Shown here: positions 38,876 through 45,765 of the stretch, in pieces
Layout of the letters: every line of letters begins with the position of its first letter
Numbering within the stretch: position 1 is the stretch's first letter
Origin: a virus
Strand: one strand, 5' to 3'
Virus record (IMG/VR): IMGVR_UViG_3300027759_006101
Span: 62,001-126,000 of that record
DNA length: 64,000 nt
Notes under the pieces: model-generated
What the model saw: only the letters and a program-made list of their open reading frames with translations
The model's database searches: none
What the model was told of the DNA's origin: nothing
Position numbers and translations under genes: made by a program

Positions 38876-40479
38876 TATAAATCATCCTCATCATTATTAT
38901 ATCTTCTTAAATCAGAATTACCATTACTAGCATTTCTAGCTCTTTCAGAAGCCCAAGCTCTCAGCAATTCAATTTCTTCTTTCATAAGTTTGGATATAGG
39001 TACAGATTCTTTCAAGGACTGAAGTATATCATAGGTTGTAATGTCTCTTTTATTATCACTAAAAGCTTCATACAATGCACTTTCTATAGCAGCTTCGATT
39101 TCAGCTCCAGTGTATGATTCGGATACATCTGACAATTTATCTAAGTCATAATGTTTTGGATTTCTAGCTCTTTTTTGAAGATGTATTTCAAAAATTATTC
39201 TTCTCTCAGAAAACTTAGGCAAATCAACAAAAAATATTTCATCAAATCTGCCTTTTCTTAAGAGCTCTGGAGGAAGTGTTGTTACATCATTGGCAGTAGC
39301 AACAACAAATACAGGCTCTTTTCTGTCTTGCATCCAAGTAAGCCAAGAGCCTAAAACTCTACTAGTAGTTCCGCCATCAGTTGAAGAAGATGCTCTACTT
39401 CCTGACATACCTTTATCAATTTCATCGCACCACAATATGCAGGGAGCAACACTTTCGGCAACCTTAAACACCTGACGCATATTTTGTTCAGAGCTTCCTA
39501 CAAGCCCTGAAAAAACTTTGCCCATATCCAGTCTTAGCAATGGGAAATTCCAAAATGAAGAAATTCCCTTAGCAAATAGAGACTTTCCAGCTCCTTGAAT
39601 TCCTACAAGTAAAATGCCCTTAGGATTACTAGGTAAGCCATATTCGACTGCTTCTCTTGAAAAAGCATCTTTACGCTTACTTAACCATATTTTCAAGCCT
39701 TCAAGACCACCAATACTATCCATATTGATACTCTCATCAATCCAGTCTAGAAGACCTGATTTCTTGATGATGTCTCTTTTTTGTTGAGATATAGTTTCAG
39801 GCAATAGAGAGGAATGCTTAATCATACAATATGTGCAAACTTGTTCACACTCAGACAAAGTAAGACCACGAAATGAATTTATAATATTGTCCTTCTCTTC
39901 ATTACTATAAGTTGTTTTGAATTTAGCAGACAAATCAGCTCGTTTACTTGCTCTTTCAAGCAAATTATTGATTTTTGTATTTATCTCAAACTTGGTTGGC
40001 AATGGGAAATCAATTAATGGCACAATCTTTTCAAGGTCATTAGGTAATTCTAAGACTGACGAAAGAATAATGATTGCTTTATTTTGGACAGTGAATTCAT
40101 TCGTAAGATTTTTGAGATGTCTTATGATTTTAATTTCTACTTGTCCCTTATAATTTCCAGACCCAAAAAATTTATTAAAGTCTTTAAGAACTAAAATACA
40201 AAATTTGTTTTTAGGAACAATTAAGTTTTGAAACCAAGAAAGAACTTCAGATTGGTCTAATTGTTTTTCAACTTCTTTTGTAGGCAAAAATTCAGGAAAA
40301 GTAGATTCTAATCCTGAAACAACGTCCCACTTTATAAGATCCCACGAAGTATCAGCTTTAGAACACATTTGCTCTAAAGCTGACAATACTCTGTTTTCCT
40401 CTTGAGAAACGATATAAATAACGGTTCTTTTGGACCTTACAAGAAGTTCAATTTCTTCTAACGTACTTATGCTATCCAT
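38875..40479 (-). CDS. Ycf46-like AAA+ ATPase
   Basis: 534 residues. The N-terminal half resembles a degenerate RecA/AAA fold with 'TVIYIVSQEENR' near residue 20, as in Ycf46 ('IY--T-EE-R'). The C-terminal AAA domain has GILLVGIQGAGKS (Walker A), LWCDEIDKGMSG (Walker B), VFVVATANDVTTLPPELLRKGRFDEIFF (sensor 1 and arginine finger region) and YTGAEIEAAIESAL (sensor 2). Ycf46 proteins of cyanobacteria and plastids have no firmly assigned biochemical role. Here it lies in the helicase-loader operon, with an ATG overlapping the upstream stop. Confidence 0.85.
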   Translation of the reverse strand: MDSISTLEEIELLVRSKRTVIYIVSQEENRVLSALEQMCSKADTSWDLIKWDVVSGLESTFPEFLPTKEVEKQLDQSEVLSWFQNLIVPKNKFCILVLKDFNKFFGSGNYKGQVEIKIIRHLKNLTNEFTVQNKAIIILSSVLELPNDLEKIVPLIDFPLPTKFEINTKINNLLERASKRADLSAKFKTTYSNEEKDNIINSFRGLTLSECEQVCTYCMIKHSSLLPETISQQKRDIIKKSGLLDWIDESINMDSIGGLEGLKIWLSKRKDAFSREAVEYGLPSNPKGILLVGIQGAGKSLFAKGISSFWNFPLLRLDMGKVFSGLVGSSEQNMRQVFKVAESVAPCILWCDEIDKGMSGSRASSSTDGGTTSRVLGSWLTWMQDRKEPVFVVATANDVTTLPPELLRKGRFDEIFFVDLPKFSERRIIFEIHLQKRARNPKHYDLDKLSDVSESYTGAEIEAAIESALYEAFSDNKRDITTYDILQSLKESVPISKLMKEEIELLRAWASERARNASNGNSDLRRYNNDEDDL

Positions 40480-41296
40480 TTAGGAACATTTCAATTTTAA
40501 ATCTTGGTTGTCCTGGGTAATCATCAGAGCGCCACCAAATTTCATTCTTAAATTTTGCTATATCTTGTTGAAATAAATTGCGCCAATCAAGAAGTTTGAA
40601 ATCTGAAGGGTAAGGTGAACGTGAAATAGATTTTTGGATAATGTCACTGAGTAGTTTTTTCTCTTGTGCGTTTCCCTTAGACATTTGAATAAATAAATTC
40701 TTCAATCCATTAGTTAAGTCTTGATCGTTAACTTTTTTGTATTTAGCATAATATGTGCTTGCTATTGGAATGCCATACTTGCTAAATAATTCCTTAGACT
40801 TACCCTCGGATGCTAATAGATGAACTTCTGGGAAAATATCTATAAGTGAAACAGAAGAATTTGACTTGATGACATCTTGAAAAAATCTATTTAAAAGATT
40901 AGGAAATTCAGCAAGTAAAAAATGGCCTGCTCTTTGCAAAACAATATTTTTATTTAAGAAACACCAATCAATAAATTTCTTGGTCCACTCATTCTTATCA
41001 AGATTATTTTCGGCCATAAAGTCCATAATGATATTGATTATTTTGTTGTCAGAAGTGTAAGTAATTTTGTATGCACCATCAAAAACTCTTTTATATTCTT
41101 GAGCAAAATAATCAGAGAAATGCTTAGGTGTCCAAAGTGCAACATCTTCTGGAATGTCTTTTGTTTTTACGGGTACAGTCTTTTTTCTTTGCCTTTTGTT
41201 AGCATTGAAAGGATTTGACAATTCACTTTGAAGAGGAACGTGTTGCATATAAATCGCCTTTACAAACTCAAATGTCGGATCGCTAACTGGTTTCAA
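40472..41296 (-). CDS. Unknown protein in the replication/repair operon
   Basis: 274 residues, mainly helical, not recognised. Basic N-terminal patch (NKRQRKKTVPVKTK), then helices rich in aromatic residues. The start is TTG at 41296, overlapping the Rad50 C-piece stop as TTGA, with GGTGGG 7 bases upstream. The tight coupling between the Rad50 piece and the Ycf46-like ATPase suggests a shared complex. Confidence 0.65.
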   Translation of the reverse strand: MKPVSDPTFEFVKAIYMQHVPLQSELSNPFNANKRQRKKTVPVKTKDIPEDVALWTPKHFSDYFAQEYKRVFDGAYKITYTSDNKIINIIMDFMAENNLDKNEWTKKFIDWCFLNKNIVLQRAGHFLLAEFPNLLNRFFQDVIKSNSSVSLIDIFPEVHLLASEGKSKELFSKYGIPIASTYYAKYKKVNDQDLTNGLKNLFIQMSKGNAQEKKLLSDIIQKSISRSPYPSDFKLLDWRNLFQQDIAKFKNEIWWRSDDYPGQPRFKIEMFLNG

Positions 41297-42018
41297 GGTA
41301 TACCCACCGTTTCATCTTCAAGCCCAAAATTTTGCATTTCTAAAATTTCTTCATGAGAAACTGATTTAATTTTTGCTATTCCATCTTCTTTGAAAGTCAA
41401 ATAGTTGACACTTGAAATCAATGAAAATTTGTCCGCAGAGTGTGATATCAATATAACTTGCAAATCCAATTCATCTATGTATGATTTCAAAAAAGCAAGC
41501 ATATTTGCCATTACAACATCTTTTGAAACAGCTGCTAAAGCTTCATCAAATATATAAATGCCTTTGTAGTCATTGTAAGTACCAAAAGCTATACGCAAAA
41601 GTACACTAATAATTTCCTGAAGACCACCACCATTAGAGCCCTTAATAGGTCTCATTACTCTTTTGCCATTGATGGTTTTTTCAATACAAGGCAAGATTGA
41701 AAATTGGCCAGAAAAGTCATCATCTTTAGAGTGAATTTCTTTTATCTCAAAAGAAAAGACATAATCATCACCATAAATTTTTTGGATAGCGCTTGTTAAT
41801 ATCTCTTCAATTGATGCAAGAGCTTTGAGACGAGTATCAGAAGCTCTTTGCCTTAAGAAAATTTGAGCTTTTTTTGTATTGCCCTTTTTATTCTCAAGAT
41901 TTTTTAAGTTATTTTCTTGCTCAGTTAATATGTTCTGTAAAGTATTACGTTCCGATTCCTGACCAATCAAATGTCTTTCAATCTTATTAATTTCTTTTTT
42001 TATTTCAGAAAATTCCAA
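41293..42018 (-). CDS. SbcC/Rad50 C-terminal ATPase piece
   Basis: 241 residues from the TTG at 42018 (AAGGAG 8 bases upstream). About 100 residues of coiled coil are followed by the ABC signature region (SNGGGLQEIISVLLRIAFG), Walker B (GIYIFDEALAAVS) and the H-loop (VILISHSAD). There is no Walker A; that is on the separate gene at 43254. It completes the Rad50 head when paired with that protein. It is the third piece of a split gene. Confidence 0.85.
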   Translation of the reverse strand: MEFSEIKKEINKIERHLIGQESERNTLQNILTEQENNLKNLENKKGNTKKAQIFLRQRASDTRLKALASIEEILTSAIQKIYGDDYVFSFEIKEIHSKDDDFSGQFSILPCIEKTINGKRVMRPIKGSNGGGLQEIISVLLRIAFGTYNDYKGIYIFDEALAAVSKDVVMANMLAFLKSYIDELDLQVILISHSADKFSLISSVNYLTFKEDGIAKIKSVSHEEILEMQNFGLEDETVGIP

Positions 42019-42019
42019 G

Positions 42020-42274
42020 CTAATCTCCTTGCAATTCTTCTAATTTAACTTCTATTTCTGATAATTTAGATTCTAAGTCAGTTTGCTTTCTGACAATAAG
42101 AGACTTTAATTCTTTTGGCTGGCAGTTATAATCAGTTTCACATTTTTGCACCAATTTATCGTGCTCAATCTTATACTTATTCAATTGCTCAGTAAGCAAT
42201 TGAACTCTTCCCTCAGCAGCTGATTTTTTTGATTTAAGTGCTTCAATTTGATCTAAAATTTCTTGTGCCGTCAT
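42020..42274 (-). CDS. Short coiled-coil protein, possible middle piece of split Rad50
   Basis: 84 residues, nearly all coiled coil (LDQIEALKSKKSAAEGRVQLL; LESKLSEIEVKLEELQGD), with two Cys in KCETDYNCQ. The position between the Mre11-like nuclease and the Rad50 C-piece, and overlaps on both sides, suggest it provides the returning arm of the coil. Alternatively it is a separate small SMC-associated protein. Confidence 0.65.
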   Translation of the reverse strand: MTAQEILDQIEALKSKKSAAEGRVQLLTEQLNKYKIEHDKLVQKCETDYNCQPKELKSLIVRKQTDLESKLSEIEVKLEELQGD

Positions 42275-43257
42275 TGTGTATTTACCTTTCTGACTGCTTC
42301 AACTGCTATTTCTGCAATATCATCAGAAACATCAGCTTTTTTAGCCATATCCTTAAGAGCCACCAGTTTATCATCAAGAGAAGTAAATTGCCAAGAGTGA
42401 GTTCTCATACTAGCAACTTTGAACTTAAATTCTTGAGTGTCTGATTTTTGTTCTTTAGCGATTTGAATTTCTTCCAATTTAAATACCTGATCGTAAGGCA
42501 ATGCAGATTTGAGTTTATAATATTCTTCGGAAATAATATCCCCATCCAAAGAATATTCTAATAATAATATTTGAATGTCTTTTTTCAAATTATCTTTAGA
42601 GGCTGAATATCTACTAATTGCACCAGGATTTATGAAGCGTTTTCCGTCACTTCTAACTTGCTCCATTGCGTGATGTATGTGACCTGAAATAACTAAGTTA
42701 GTATTTGGATGTAATGGAGTATTTTCAAATAAGAAAGTAAATTCTTCAAATCTATCTAAAGCTGTTGATATAGAAGCATGACAAACCCATATGATAGCCG
42801 AGGATGATGTCAAATAGCCCTCTTTTATATCCTTATCTAAGCTTGCGGTGTAATGAGCAAAAGATATACCTAGAGATGGTTCATAGCCTGTTTTGATTAG
42901 ATATCCAGCGTTTATTAGAGTACCTAAAGTTGTTTTTTCTAAATTACAAGAACTATCTAAATCGTGATTGCCTACACACACATAAATTGGAAATGACCAA
43001 GAGATATTTCCATTAGGCACACCCTTGAGAATGTCTAATGTTTGATTGCGTAATAATGGACCTACTTCATATGATTCGAATAAATCCCCGAGCAAAACAA
43101 CAGCATCAAGTTTTCGTTCTTCAGCTAACAATAAACACTCAGTCAGCTTTTTTTTGATTGCTTCACAATAATTATCAAGTCTGTTTTTTGGCTGTCTATC
43201 TGATAAATGAATATCGCCAATAAACATAACTCTCTTTGTTTTTATTTCGTTTTTCAT
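42271..43257 (-). CDS. sbcD: SbcD/Mre11-like nuclease
   Basis: 328 residues from the ATG at 43257, overlapping the Rad50 N-piece stop as ATGA. Calcineurin-like metallophosphoesterase motifs: MFIGDIHLSDRQ (I), VVLLGDLFESYE (II), YVCVGNHDLDSS (III), WVCHAS (IV) and VISGHIHHAM (V). It would form the nuclease of a Rad50-Mre11 complex for DNA end processing. Unusually, it sits between the split Rad50 pieces. Confidence 0.92.
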   Translation of the reverse strand: MKNEIKTKRVMFIGDIHLSDRQPKNRLDNYCEAIKKKLTECLLLAEERKLDAVVLLGDLFESYEVGPLLRNQTLDILKGVPNGNISWSFPIYVCVGNHDLDSSCNLEKTTLGTLINAGYLIKTGYEPSLGISFAHYTASLDKDIKEGYLTSSSAIIWVCHASISTALDRFEEFTFLFENTPLHPNTNLVISGHIHHAMEQVRSDGKRFINPGAISRYSASKDNLKKDIQILLLEYSLDGDIISEEYYKLKSALPYDQVFKLEEIQIAKEQKSDTQEFKFKVASMRTHSWQFTSLDDKLVALKDMAKKADVSDDIAEIAVEAVRKVNTQ

Positions 43258-44381
43258 ACAGGTTTTCCACAAGTATCACATAAGTCAAAATTTTCAGAAA
43301 GATATTTTTTCAAACGCTCAATCTCTTTGTTGCTTTCTAAAATAATTTTGTTTTCATCAGACGTGTTTTTTTCAGTTTCGCTAATACTATCAGATACTTC
43401 TTGCAAACATTCTTTAAGTTCATTAGCTAGAGTGTATTCTAATTGAAGTTTCACAGATTCTGAAATTAAGTTACCAATGGTTCCTTCAGAAATTTCAAAA
43501 TATTTTTCGTATTGCTTTTTGGACTTGAAAAAATTATCTCTTGCTTTAGAAATTTCTTCAATCATTTTCAATCCATCTTCTATATCACTGAATGAGTCTT
43601 CCAAAAGTGGTATAGATTCTGAGAAAAAATTAATTAGTACGCTCGTATGATTTATTTCATTTTTGCAGTCTCTAACTCTATTGATTAAGGTTGCAATATC
43701 ATTGAAAAAAGATTTGGCATCGTGTATGTATGTTTCACAATCTTGATATTTATTTATCAAATCATTTAGTTTTTCTAAACTTTCTAGCTTTTCATCAAGT
43801 CCTTCAAAAGGTTCTAATTTCTTTTTTGTATTTTCGATTTCAGTATTTGCTCTTTTAATATCACCAGAAATTTTATTTATATCAGAACCTAAATTTGATG
43901 CAGCTTCTTCTAAATCGTGAATGCCTAATAATCTGGAAATTTCCTTTGGTAGAGCTTCGTCGCTTAGATTGATAAGGAAAAGTTTATCTTCTTGATTGGC
44001 AAAAGAAAGAGCGCCAGTTGAAGTTTTAGGAATGTGACCGAGAAAGTCTAATGCTTCTTGTGGAAATTGTTTAGAGAATCTTGAATGTTTTTGTAATTCT
44101 TTACCAGCATATTGGAATTCAAGCTCATTAGTATCGCCCTTGATTCTTTTGTAGTAATCACCATTTTTAAAATTTATAGTGATTTGAGCGTTCTTTTGTC
44201 CATCTCTTACATCTTGTTTTCTAAAGATATCAAGAAATGCTGTTGAGAGGGATCTGAATAATCCAGATTTGCCACTATCGGAGCTTCCTGTTATCAAATT
44301 CAAACCTGGATATAGTTTGATGTGAGTATCTTGGTGATTTTGAAAATCCTGTATGCGTATTGATTCTATATGCCTATTCAT
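43254..44381 (-). CDS. SbcC/Rad50 N-terminal piece ending at the zinc hook
   Basis: 375 residues. Starts IESIRIQDFQNHQDTHIKL and has Walker A (TGSSDSGKSG, residues 31-40) and a Q-loop-like ALSFANQEDKLFLI. About 200 residues of coiled coil follow. The last residues are DLCDTCGKPV, a CxxC zinc hook at the extreme C-terminus. Normal Rad50 continues into the returning coil; here the polypeptide stops right after the hook. The partner half is at 41293. The start overlaps the upstream stop as ATGA. Confidence 0.92.
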   Translation of the reverse strand: MNRHIESIRIQDFQNHQDTHIKLYPGLNLITGSSDSGKSGLFRSLSTAFLDIFRKQDVRDGQKNAQITINFKNGDYYKRIKGDTNELEFQYAGKELQKHSRFSKQFPQEALDFLGHIPKTSTGALSFANQEDKLFLINLSDEALPKEISRLLGIHDLEEAASNLGSDINKISGDIKRANTEIENTKKKLEPFEGLDEKLESLEKLNDLINKYQDCETYIHDAKSFFNDIATLINRVRDCKNEINHTSVLINFFSESIPLLEDSFSDIEDGLKMIEEISKARDNFFKSKKQYEKYFEISEGTIGNLISESVKLQLEYTLANELKECLQEVSDSISETEKNTSDENKIILESNKEIERLKKYLSENFDLCDTCGKPV

Positions 44382-44863
44382 CGCAAAATTATTGTAGACA
44401 AAATATCTGGAAAATGCAAGTCAACAAAGTTAGATCTTGCCCTTAATATGCTAGAATTAACTTGAGTAACATCTGGAATTTCGATTTTGTACAGCTCTGC
44501 TTTATTAATCTTTATGGGAGAATTTTCTAAAGAGCAGCATTTAGATGATTTGCCATTGTGTATTTTATTGCAAGACATACAAGTAAAGTCATTGCTTCTA
44601 AAATGTGGAATGAAATATTGGACACTATAATTAATTTCTATCTTCTTAAATCGAATATAAGAACTGCCAGAAAAATCTTTATTAGTGCTGCAAATCTTAC
44701 GAAAGCTTGTTCCACTACATTCTACCAATATCGTTGCTGGAACCATTATAGAATAATCTTTTGTAAAAACAAGTTTAGTATCTGACAAAATTCCTGGGCT
44801 GGCTAAGCATCCTAAAATTTCGTTATTTGATATTATGAATCTGTGCAGAGATGGCAAAAGCAT
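44378..44863 (-). CDS. Unknown zinc-ribbon-like protein upstream of the Rad50 N-piece
   Basis: 161 residues from the ATG at 44863. A zinc-ribbon-like motif CMSCNKIHNGKSSKCCS is at about residues 105-122. The rest is strand-rich and not recognised. The ATGA overlap with the Rad50 gene shows coupling. It starts 2 bases from the divergent plus-strand gene, marking the right end of the minus-strand replication block. The upstream TATATTTATTTTCATA is AT-rich and may hold a promoter. Confidence 0.6.
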   Translation of the reverse strand: MLLPSLHRFIISNNEILGCLASPGILSDTKLVFTKDYSIMVPATILVECSGTSFRKICSTNKDFSGSSYIRFKKIEINYSVQYFIPHFRSNDFTCMSCNKIHNGKSSKCCSLENSPIKINKAELYKIEIPDVTQVNSSILRARSNFVDLHFPDILSTIILR

Positions 44864-44864
44864 T

Positions 44865-45062
44865 ATGAAAATAAATATAGACAGGGATATGTTGTTAACT
44901 GAATTATACGATTTACGGTCAGTTTTGGCTGAAGCATCATTAATTTCGGATGAGGCTAGAGTTGGCAAAGAAAAATTAGACAAAATTATAAATCTAATTA
45001 CAAATTGTCCTCAAGCTGAAGGCAACTCATCATATCCTAAGCCAAAGTTAAGGAGAGGGTAA
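44865..45062 (+). CDS. Small unknown coiled-coil protein
   Basis: 65 residues from the ATG at 44865 (MKINIDRDML). Helical, with a basic C-terminus (KPKLRRG). It overlaps the next gene by 1 base (TAATG). Not recognised. Confidence 0.5.
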   Translation: MKINIDRDMLLTELYDLRSVLAEASLISDEARVGKEKLDKIINLITNCPQAEGNSSYPKPKLRRG

Positions 45063-45301
45063 TGACACAGAATAGACTTAATGATTTGAATGAAAAAATA
45101 GAGAAAGAAACTATTTCTCTAAATGAAGTAGCTGAAATTTGTAGCGCTGCTTTAGAATCTTCCAGCAAGCATTCTAAAGATATCAAGAATATGCTTAAGA
45201 GTTTCGAAGAAAAATTATGTTCTTTAGAACAAAAAATCCAAGAATTAGAAGATAAATCTAATCTTGGATTTAGTGTAATTTTAGAAGATGAGGAAGACTA
45301 A
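45062..45301 (+). CDS. Small unknown coiled-coil protein
   Basis: 79 residues: coiled coil (LNDLNEKIEKETISL; LKSFEEKLCSLEQKIQELEDK) and an acidic end. Coupled to the gene before it. Convergent with the gene at 45298. Confidence 0.55.
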   Translation: MTQNRLNDLNEKIEKETISLNEVAEICSAALESSSKHSKDIKNMLKSFEEKLCSLEQKIQELEDKSNLGFSVILEDEED

Positions 45302-45765
45302 ACTTCCTCATCTCTAGTTTTAATTCTGACTACAAAAGGCTGGTCTGTTTCATAACTCGCCCAAGTATTAGAATCCAATTGATATACATCTGAGGATCCT
45401 GTATATGGACAAACAATATTGATATCGTCATCCATACTTTCGATAACTAAGTTTACAACTGCAATCCTATCTCTAATTTTTCTGTCAGTTGCTTCATTTG
45501 ATGTTGAGTCATAATCACTATCAATAAGCCCCAAAGAACGCTCACCTTCTTCTGTAAGGTCTTCATCATCAAAGTCATCTAATAAATCAATGTCATCAAT
45601 AGGCACTTCTATTTCTAACATTTGACCATCTTTCTCTACTAAAACAGTGTGAGTTTTCATATTGTGATAAGTATTATCAACATCCATCAATTCTGCTAAA
45701 GCTTCTTCTGATTGACGCTTAGCAGTAAGTTCATCTACTATAATGCCTTCTGTTTTTCTTTCCAT
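45298..45765 (-). CDS. Unknown acidic protein
   Basis: 155 residues, not recognised. A strongly acidic centre (DDIDLLDDFDDEDLTEEGE) and a strand-rich C-terminal part containing VCPYTGSSDVYQLD. It follows the exported-protein gene by 7 bases and converges on the plus-strand pair. No enzyme motif. Confidence 0.6.
   Translation of the reverse strand: MERKTEGIIVDELTAKRQSEEALAELMDVDNTYHNMKTHTVLVEKDGQMLEIEVPIDDIDLLDDFDDEDLTEEGERSLGLIDSDYDSTSNEATDRKIRDRIAVVNLVIESMDDDINIVCPYTGSSDVYQLDSNTWASYETDQPFVVRIKTRDEEV

Follow-up and report, generated by a model that had tools for sequence, protein, structure and literature searches.

The stretch analysed here, called the window, comprises 64,000 nucleotides (bases 62001-126000) of the virus record IMGVR_UViG_3300027759_006101, which is 358,269 bases (358 kb) long. 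Its open reading frames (ORFs) and sequence place four consecutive genes of a putative Mre11-Rad50 (SbcCD) module on the minus strand, with Rad50 divided into pieces. The first gene (43254-44381) encodes a 375-residue N-piece made up of lobe I of the ATP-binding cassette (ABC) ATPase, a long helical arm and a hook end. It is followed by the gene of the Mre11/SbcD nuclease (42271-43257, 328 residues, ATG at 43257), by that of a small coil subunit, a helix-loop-helix by homology (42020-42274, 84 residues, ATG at 42274), and by that of the C-piece (41293-42018, 241 residues), which carries a short arm and lobe II. The Mre11 start overlaps the N-piece stop as ATGA, and the coil start overlaps the Mre11 stop in the same manner. 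The C-piece begins with a TTG at 42018, one base past the coil TAG, and is preceded by an AAGGAG ribosome-binding site (42030-42025, same strand). A preliminary description of this DNA had proposed these separate starts, an N-piece with a Walker A motif that stops just past CDTC, and then the nuclease, the 84-residue coil and a C-piece with signature, Walker B and H-loop; every one of these elements was located.

Together, the two larger pieces carry the motifs of one complete Rad50 head, and no motif is shared: Walker A and the Q-loop lie in the N-piece, and the GGG signature, the Walker B DE and the H-loop in the C-piece. This division is conserved across 61-67 relatives. Walker A of the N-piece, GSSDSGKS, spans residues 32-39 (44265-44288, minus strand), and its G32, G37 and K38 are invariant in 67/67 N-pieces; the Q-loop glutamine is kept in 66 of them. 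The chain ends in FDLCDTCGKPV, so that the stop lies four residues after the zinc-hook motif CDTC (residues 368-371, 43269-43280, minus strand), and C368 and C371 do not vary in N-piece alignments of 24 and 22 sequences. In the C-piece, the signature-like NGGG occupies residues 129-132 (41623-41634, minus strand), and its three glycines are kept in 58-59 of 61 C-pieces. The Walker B DE, within FDEA, corresponds to residues 158-159 (41542-41547, minus strand; D in 61/61 and E in 60/61), and the H-loop histidine is residue 193 (41440-41442, minus strand; H in 55/61). The two ATPase lobes would be functional only if joined in trans.

Family searches gave matches for all four genes or their relatives. 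In Pfam, AAA_23 was found in the N-piece (E-value 8e-10) and Metallophos in Mre11 (5e-9). PHROG 16465 ('exonuclease') matches the N-piece (1e-28), PHROG 15167 ('ATPase', a stand-alone profile of 211 residues) matches the C-piece (9e-25) and PHROG 18563 ('unknown') matches the coil of a relative; none of the three is labelled as belonging to a divided Rad50. When compared with solved structures, the C-piece profile matched the Rad50 C-half chain 3qkr_B (2e-13) and the Mre11 profile matched solved Mre11 (3e-15). The Mre11 phosphoesterase residues D15, H17, D58, H98, H160 and H195 are invariant among 8 relatives. The top matches of the N- and C-profiles include the A and B chains of 1f2t, 1ii8 and 3qkr, where the halves of the Rad50 head are separate chains. 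In these catalytic-domain entries of the PDB, as in 9a9j, one head is likewise formed from an N (A) and a C (B) chain. These entries represent laboratory constructs, the natural protein being a single chain, whereas the phage division is natural and located at the hook. An AlphaFold2 model of the window N-piece (mean predicted local distance difference test 82.7, predicted template modelling score (pTM) 0.37) consists of lobe I, helices 155-192, 195-299 and 301-364, and a short hook loop; in sequence and model alike, CDTC 368-371 directly follows the arm helix. A structural search with this model returned Pyrococcus Rad50 N-half chains as top matches.

The module can be compared with single-chain Rad50/SbcC and Mre11/SbcD, such as T4 gp46/gp47 and E. 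coli SbcCD. Both have the ABC-ATPase lobes (Walker A, Q-loop, Walker B DE and H-loop), a long helical arm with a CxxC hook at its tip, and an adjacent Mre11/SbcD gene, here in the same operon. The phage module differs in consisting of three Rad50 polypeptides: there is no single chain with a return arm after the hook, the stop falling four codons past a C-terminal CxxC and the return parts being encoded apart. It also differs in its GGG, usually without serine, and in its unequal arms, whose lengths do not match in the window and do so only in the class with the shortest arms. Other families agree less well with the locus. The globular hinge of SMC proteins is absent, the arm terminating in CxxC and then a stop; RecF and RecN, which have neither zinc hook nor Mre11 partner, do not fit, as CxxC and Mre11 are both present.

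Relatives were collected by scanning viral contigs with aligned C-pieces, which gave 55 loci, and with aligned N-pieces, which gave 50 loci; a scan with the window C-piece by itself gave no matches. After removal of near copies, 70 distinct complete N-pieces remained, including that of the window. The last CxxC lies at most 30 residues from the C-terminus in 67 of them, compared to 22 of 516 other ORFs of 250-600 residues at the same loci. Of these 67 N-pieces, 65 contain exactly one CxxC, 2-28 residues before the end (median 10). Three sequences depart from the terminal CxxC: L114 is an intact single chain (649 residues, CxxC in mid-chain), and L097 and L101 have an altered hook. The C-piece is encoded separately in all split loci with a complete region, and a fusion of N- and C-pieces was found in none. 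The preliminary description had called for a search of related phages for the same split, and had named re-sequencing into one continuous frame as an objection. The closest relatives, L002, L004 and L018, share 46-53% identity with the window in the N-piece and have the same split, as do far more distant contigs, which answers that objection.

These data bear directly on the possibility that the split is an assembly error, the gene being in reality one frame, or that it is a decaying pseudogene in this phage. Frame breaks are a frequent artefact in long coiled-coil genes, and the genes come from metagenomic contigs. However, an entire nuclease gene separates the N- and C-pieces, the overlaps and the ribosome-binding site are intact, and the catalytic residues are retained. 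Moreover, 66 further distinct N-pieces show the same split, as do records of named phages, Bacillus phage vB_BboS-125 among them. Given this conserved arrangement across independent records, the explanation by error or decay is already refuted, and we accord it practically no probability. The split Rad50 is thus confirmed as real and conserved, in dozens of distantly related phages.

The coil ORF accompanies the other parts. It was found with a hidden Markov model in about 40 loci, and in a second pass all 22 loci that had N, Mre11 and C but no initial coil match gave a coil-like ORF of 76-107 residues nearby (E-values 2e-10 to 0.015). Because the coil is constantly present in relatives, the number of Rad50 pieces, left at two or three in the preliminary description, is three (N, coil and C) and not two. 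The conserved split, the separate C-piece and the accompanying coil together point to a Rad50 that is conserved in three parts ('trans') alongside Mre11. Two loci, L025 and L041, have a coil ORF that begins right after the N-piece stop codon without a change of frame, as expected if the coil continues the ancestral chain. This shared frame of N-piece, stop and coil, and an AP2-domain gene interposed between the pieces in vB_BboS-125, might suggest instead that a single chain is restored through recoding, an intron or protein splicing. We regard such restoration as barely conceivable: in the window the N- and C-pieces are kept apart by the whole of Mre11, which is read in a different frame, an Rfam scan of 40400-45200 found no significant intron, and an N-piece that ends only 4 residues past the hook leaves no space for half an intein.

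The order of the genes varies, and the parts co-occur despite these changes. The order N-Mre11-coil-C is found in the window and many other loci, and N-coil-C-Mre11 in a Bacillus-type group. In L055 (5147-7270) and L060 (4369-6579), Mre11 and the N-piece form a single fused chain, with Mre11 first and CxxC at the end, the coil and C-piece being encoded apart. A gene of 377 residues, sliding-clamp-like by inspection, is interposed in a 485-kb uncultured phage, and a 245-residue gene without a Pfam match lies between coil and C-piece in L005 (7229-7966). The parts are present in Bacillus phage vB_BboS-125, Microcystis phage Mvi-JY20, the 485-kb phage and Microbacterium phage Magritte, in which N is gp155, Mre11 gp228, the coil gp245 and C gp2. 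Beyond these three named phages and the 485-kb phage, hardly any of 50,697 phage records contained them. Relatives of the C-piece also occur in Brevibacillus, Paenibacillus and Sutcliffiella genomes. The Mre11 of vB_BboS-125 (L007:4424-5404; NC_048735.1 22423-23403) is an intact ORF that carries no annotation in the record. In a tree of lobes I and II, one group (support 88) takes in 59 of the 61 split rows, and the window clusters with L002, L004 and L018 at support 100. The tree is weakly compatible with a single origin of the split, the evidence being weak because the intact chains sit on very long branches.

Taken as a whole, we consider it probable that these genes constitute a four-gene Mre11-Rad50 (SbcCD) module whose Rad50 is made as three polypeptides that join in trans into one head. 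We infer an assembly along the following lines, covering joining in trans, stoichiometry, the role of the coil, dimerisation through the hook and the activity of the complex. The N- and C-pieces would associate in trans into a single ABC-ATPase head, and Mre11 would bind at the arm base. The terminal CxxC motifs of two N-pieces would bind zinc, and the N-pieces would thereby dimerise via their hooks; in ordinary Rad50 the hook is a stable dimerisation module (PMC6969161). The coil of about 80 residues may replace the hook-side portion of the lost return arm, packed on the N-arm, and in longer N-arms the remainder may be covered by extra coil copies or by N:N pairing. The complex would process DNA ends in phage recombination and replication, as does T4 gp46/47.

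Several observations weigh against this assembly. The serine of the signature, an ATP contact in ordinary Rad50, is usually missing: among 61 C-pieces the position is R in 20, S in 12 and N in 6, and it is N in the window. As the serine is absent in most members, ATP hydrolysis may differ. A joint model of the parts also proved uninformative on packing. It was built for L041, chosen since its pieces share a frame, as one N+coil+linker+C chain in which stops were read as residues and the intervening stretch served as linker. The coil was predicted as helices 487-534 and 539-562 and the top structural match of the whole model was Rad50 7zr1_D (E-value 1e-14). Its pTM of 0.34 permits no inference on how the parts pack, so that assembly is neither shown nor excluded by it. 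Finally, for the window, as for most members, no 1:1 return arm could match the length of the N-arm. Measured from where lobe I ends up to CxxC, the N-arm has 148-352 residues in 65 loci (216 in the window), compared to mostly 61-78 for the C-piece arm and mostly 75-94 for the coil; its excess over coil and C-arm together is about 50 residues for the window and up to about 200 elsewhere. MAFFT alignments mixing N-, coil and C-pieces with one chain were mostly misplaced; alignment A14 was used, its coil rows being partly misplaced.

The same imbalance is seen when distances between motifs are compared. Intact phage Rad50/SbcC chains, of which five were measured, have a distance from Walker A to hook that is 47-73 residues greater than that from hook to signature. 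Among the split loci, with the coil counted as fully extended, this excess ranges over 63-318 residues (median 133); the window has 119. Only the class with the shortest N-arms matches the balance of intact chains, its tail, coil and C-arm giving a median offset of 60. The preliminary description had the Rad50 split at the hook, with the two arms assembling in trans. The cut after CxxC holds, whereas a simple re-pairing of matching arms is not supported, given the offset of 119 in the window against 47-73.

Two further explanations concern the unpaired length of the N-arm. The first refines the three-part assembly: coil copies would tile the N-arm, one for each repeat of about 47 residues, so that repeat number and coil stoichiometry, rather than a return arm, set the arm length. 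N-arms show a self-similarity peak at 47 residues (mean z 3.1 over 63 arms and 5.5 in 18 long arms, with a harmonic at 94), which reaches z 9.7 in L063 and 6.1 in L041. Tandem repeats of about 47 residues are visible in the N-piece arms of L063 (e.g. L063:6062-7525), L041, L023 and L059. The N-arm grows from about 150 to about 350 residues while coil and C-arm remain almost unchanged, class medians of the excess lie near 0, 1, 2, 3 and 4 times 47 in classes binned by eye, and a median of 47 residues precedes the loop in the 20 coils where the loop motif was found. However, quantisation of N-arm length was not significant once like lengths were collapsed (p 0.11; best period about 52), and the claim is therefore limited to periodicity of sequence. 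The 47-residue peak was not detected by self-similarity analysis in the N-arm of the window itself, and duplication can produce repeats without any partner. We hold the tiling to be a rather doubtful refinement. The second explanation is that N-pieces pair with each other as a coiled coil along the unpaired arm, the hooks closing the same dimer, with coil and C-arm only at the base. It would account for an N-arm that possibly outlasts its partners, and the window N-arm is modelled as near-continuous long helices, but it leaves the constant presence of a coil of near-constant size unexplained; we judge it improbable.

The surroundings of the module were also considered. Downstream lie genes for an AAA-ATPase, a DnaC-like loader, the DnaB helicase and the alpha subunit of DNA polymerase III (PolIII alpha), neighbours in keeping with a function in the replication and recombination of the phage. 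In the 358-kb record as a whole AAA_23 matched once, and the single-chain phage SbcC family phrog_77 had no match; a second Rad50 was not found in this record, which is possibly incomplete. A promoter scan gave no usable result. The gene upstream of the N-piece (44378-44983, minus strand) overlaps it as ATGA and carries a CxxC...CC cluster. It has no Pfam match, has a homologue at the matching place in L002, L004 and perhaps L005, and is possibly an additional component of the module. Immediately after the C-piece, a 274-residue gene (40472-41296, minus strand) has equivalently placed homologues in L002, L004 and L005 and no significant family match. A terminator-like hairpin of 11 pairs, AGATGAGGAAG...CTTCCTCATCT, lies at 45286-45313 (plus strand) between converging genes.

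Related arrangements have been reported. Yoshida et al. 2011 (PMC3175470) describe, in the relevant passages, Mre11/Rad50 fusion proteins in Mimivirus and others, of which those of Bacillus phage 0305phi8-36 and Anaerostipes miss one SbcC P-loop segment. These two resemble L055 and L060, where Mre11 is fused to the N-piece, and L055 and L060 are likely of the same kind as the 0305phi8-36 protein. In those passages the missing half is not traced, and the remaining cases are fusions and not splits. The pertinent passages of a survey of jumbo phages (PMC7824862) report that PolIII alpha and RNA polymerase beta/beta' are split and thought to reassemble, enzymes in separate genes like the split Rad50; they give SbcC as near-universal in jumbo phages, with no word of it being split. 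A search of the open-access literature yielded no account of Rad50 being divided in phages, subscription journals lying outside its scope.

Rad50 is known from textbooks as one chain that runs out to the hook and back. The three-part Rad50 suggests that this protein can be assembled from parts. A natural Rad50 without a covalent return path, persisting across many phages, would show that hook and lobes need no single chain, and its separately mutable parts would make signalling between hook and head testable. More tentatively, and with only a slender chance of being correct, Rad50 may be modular, its reach being set by N-arm units of about 47 residues and several constant-size coil copies that replace the return arm; if so, phages would adjust the distance from hook to head by gaining or losing units, with the C-piece unchanged. 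The three-part Rad50 would also explain phage genes annotated as 'exonuclease', 'ATPase' and 'hypothetical' as components of one complex.

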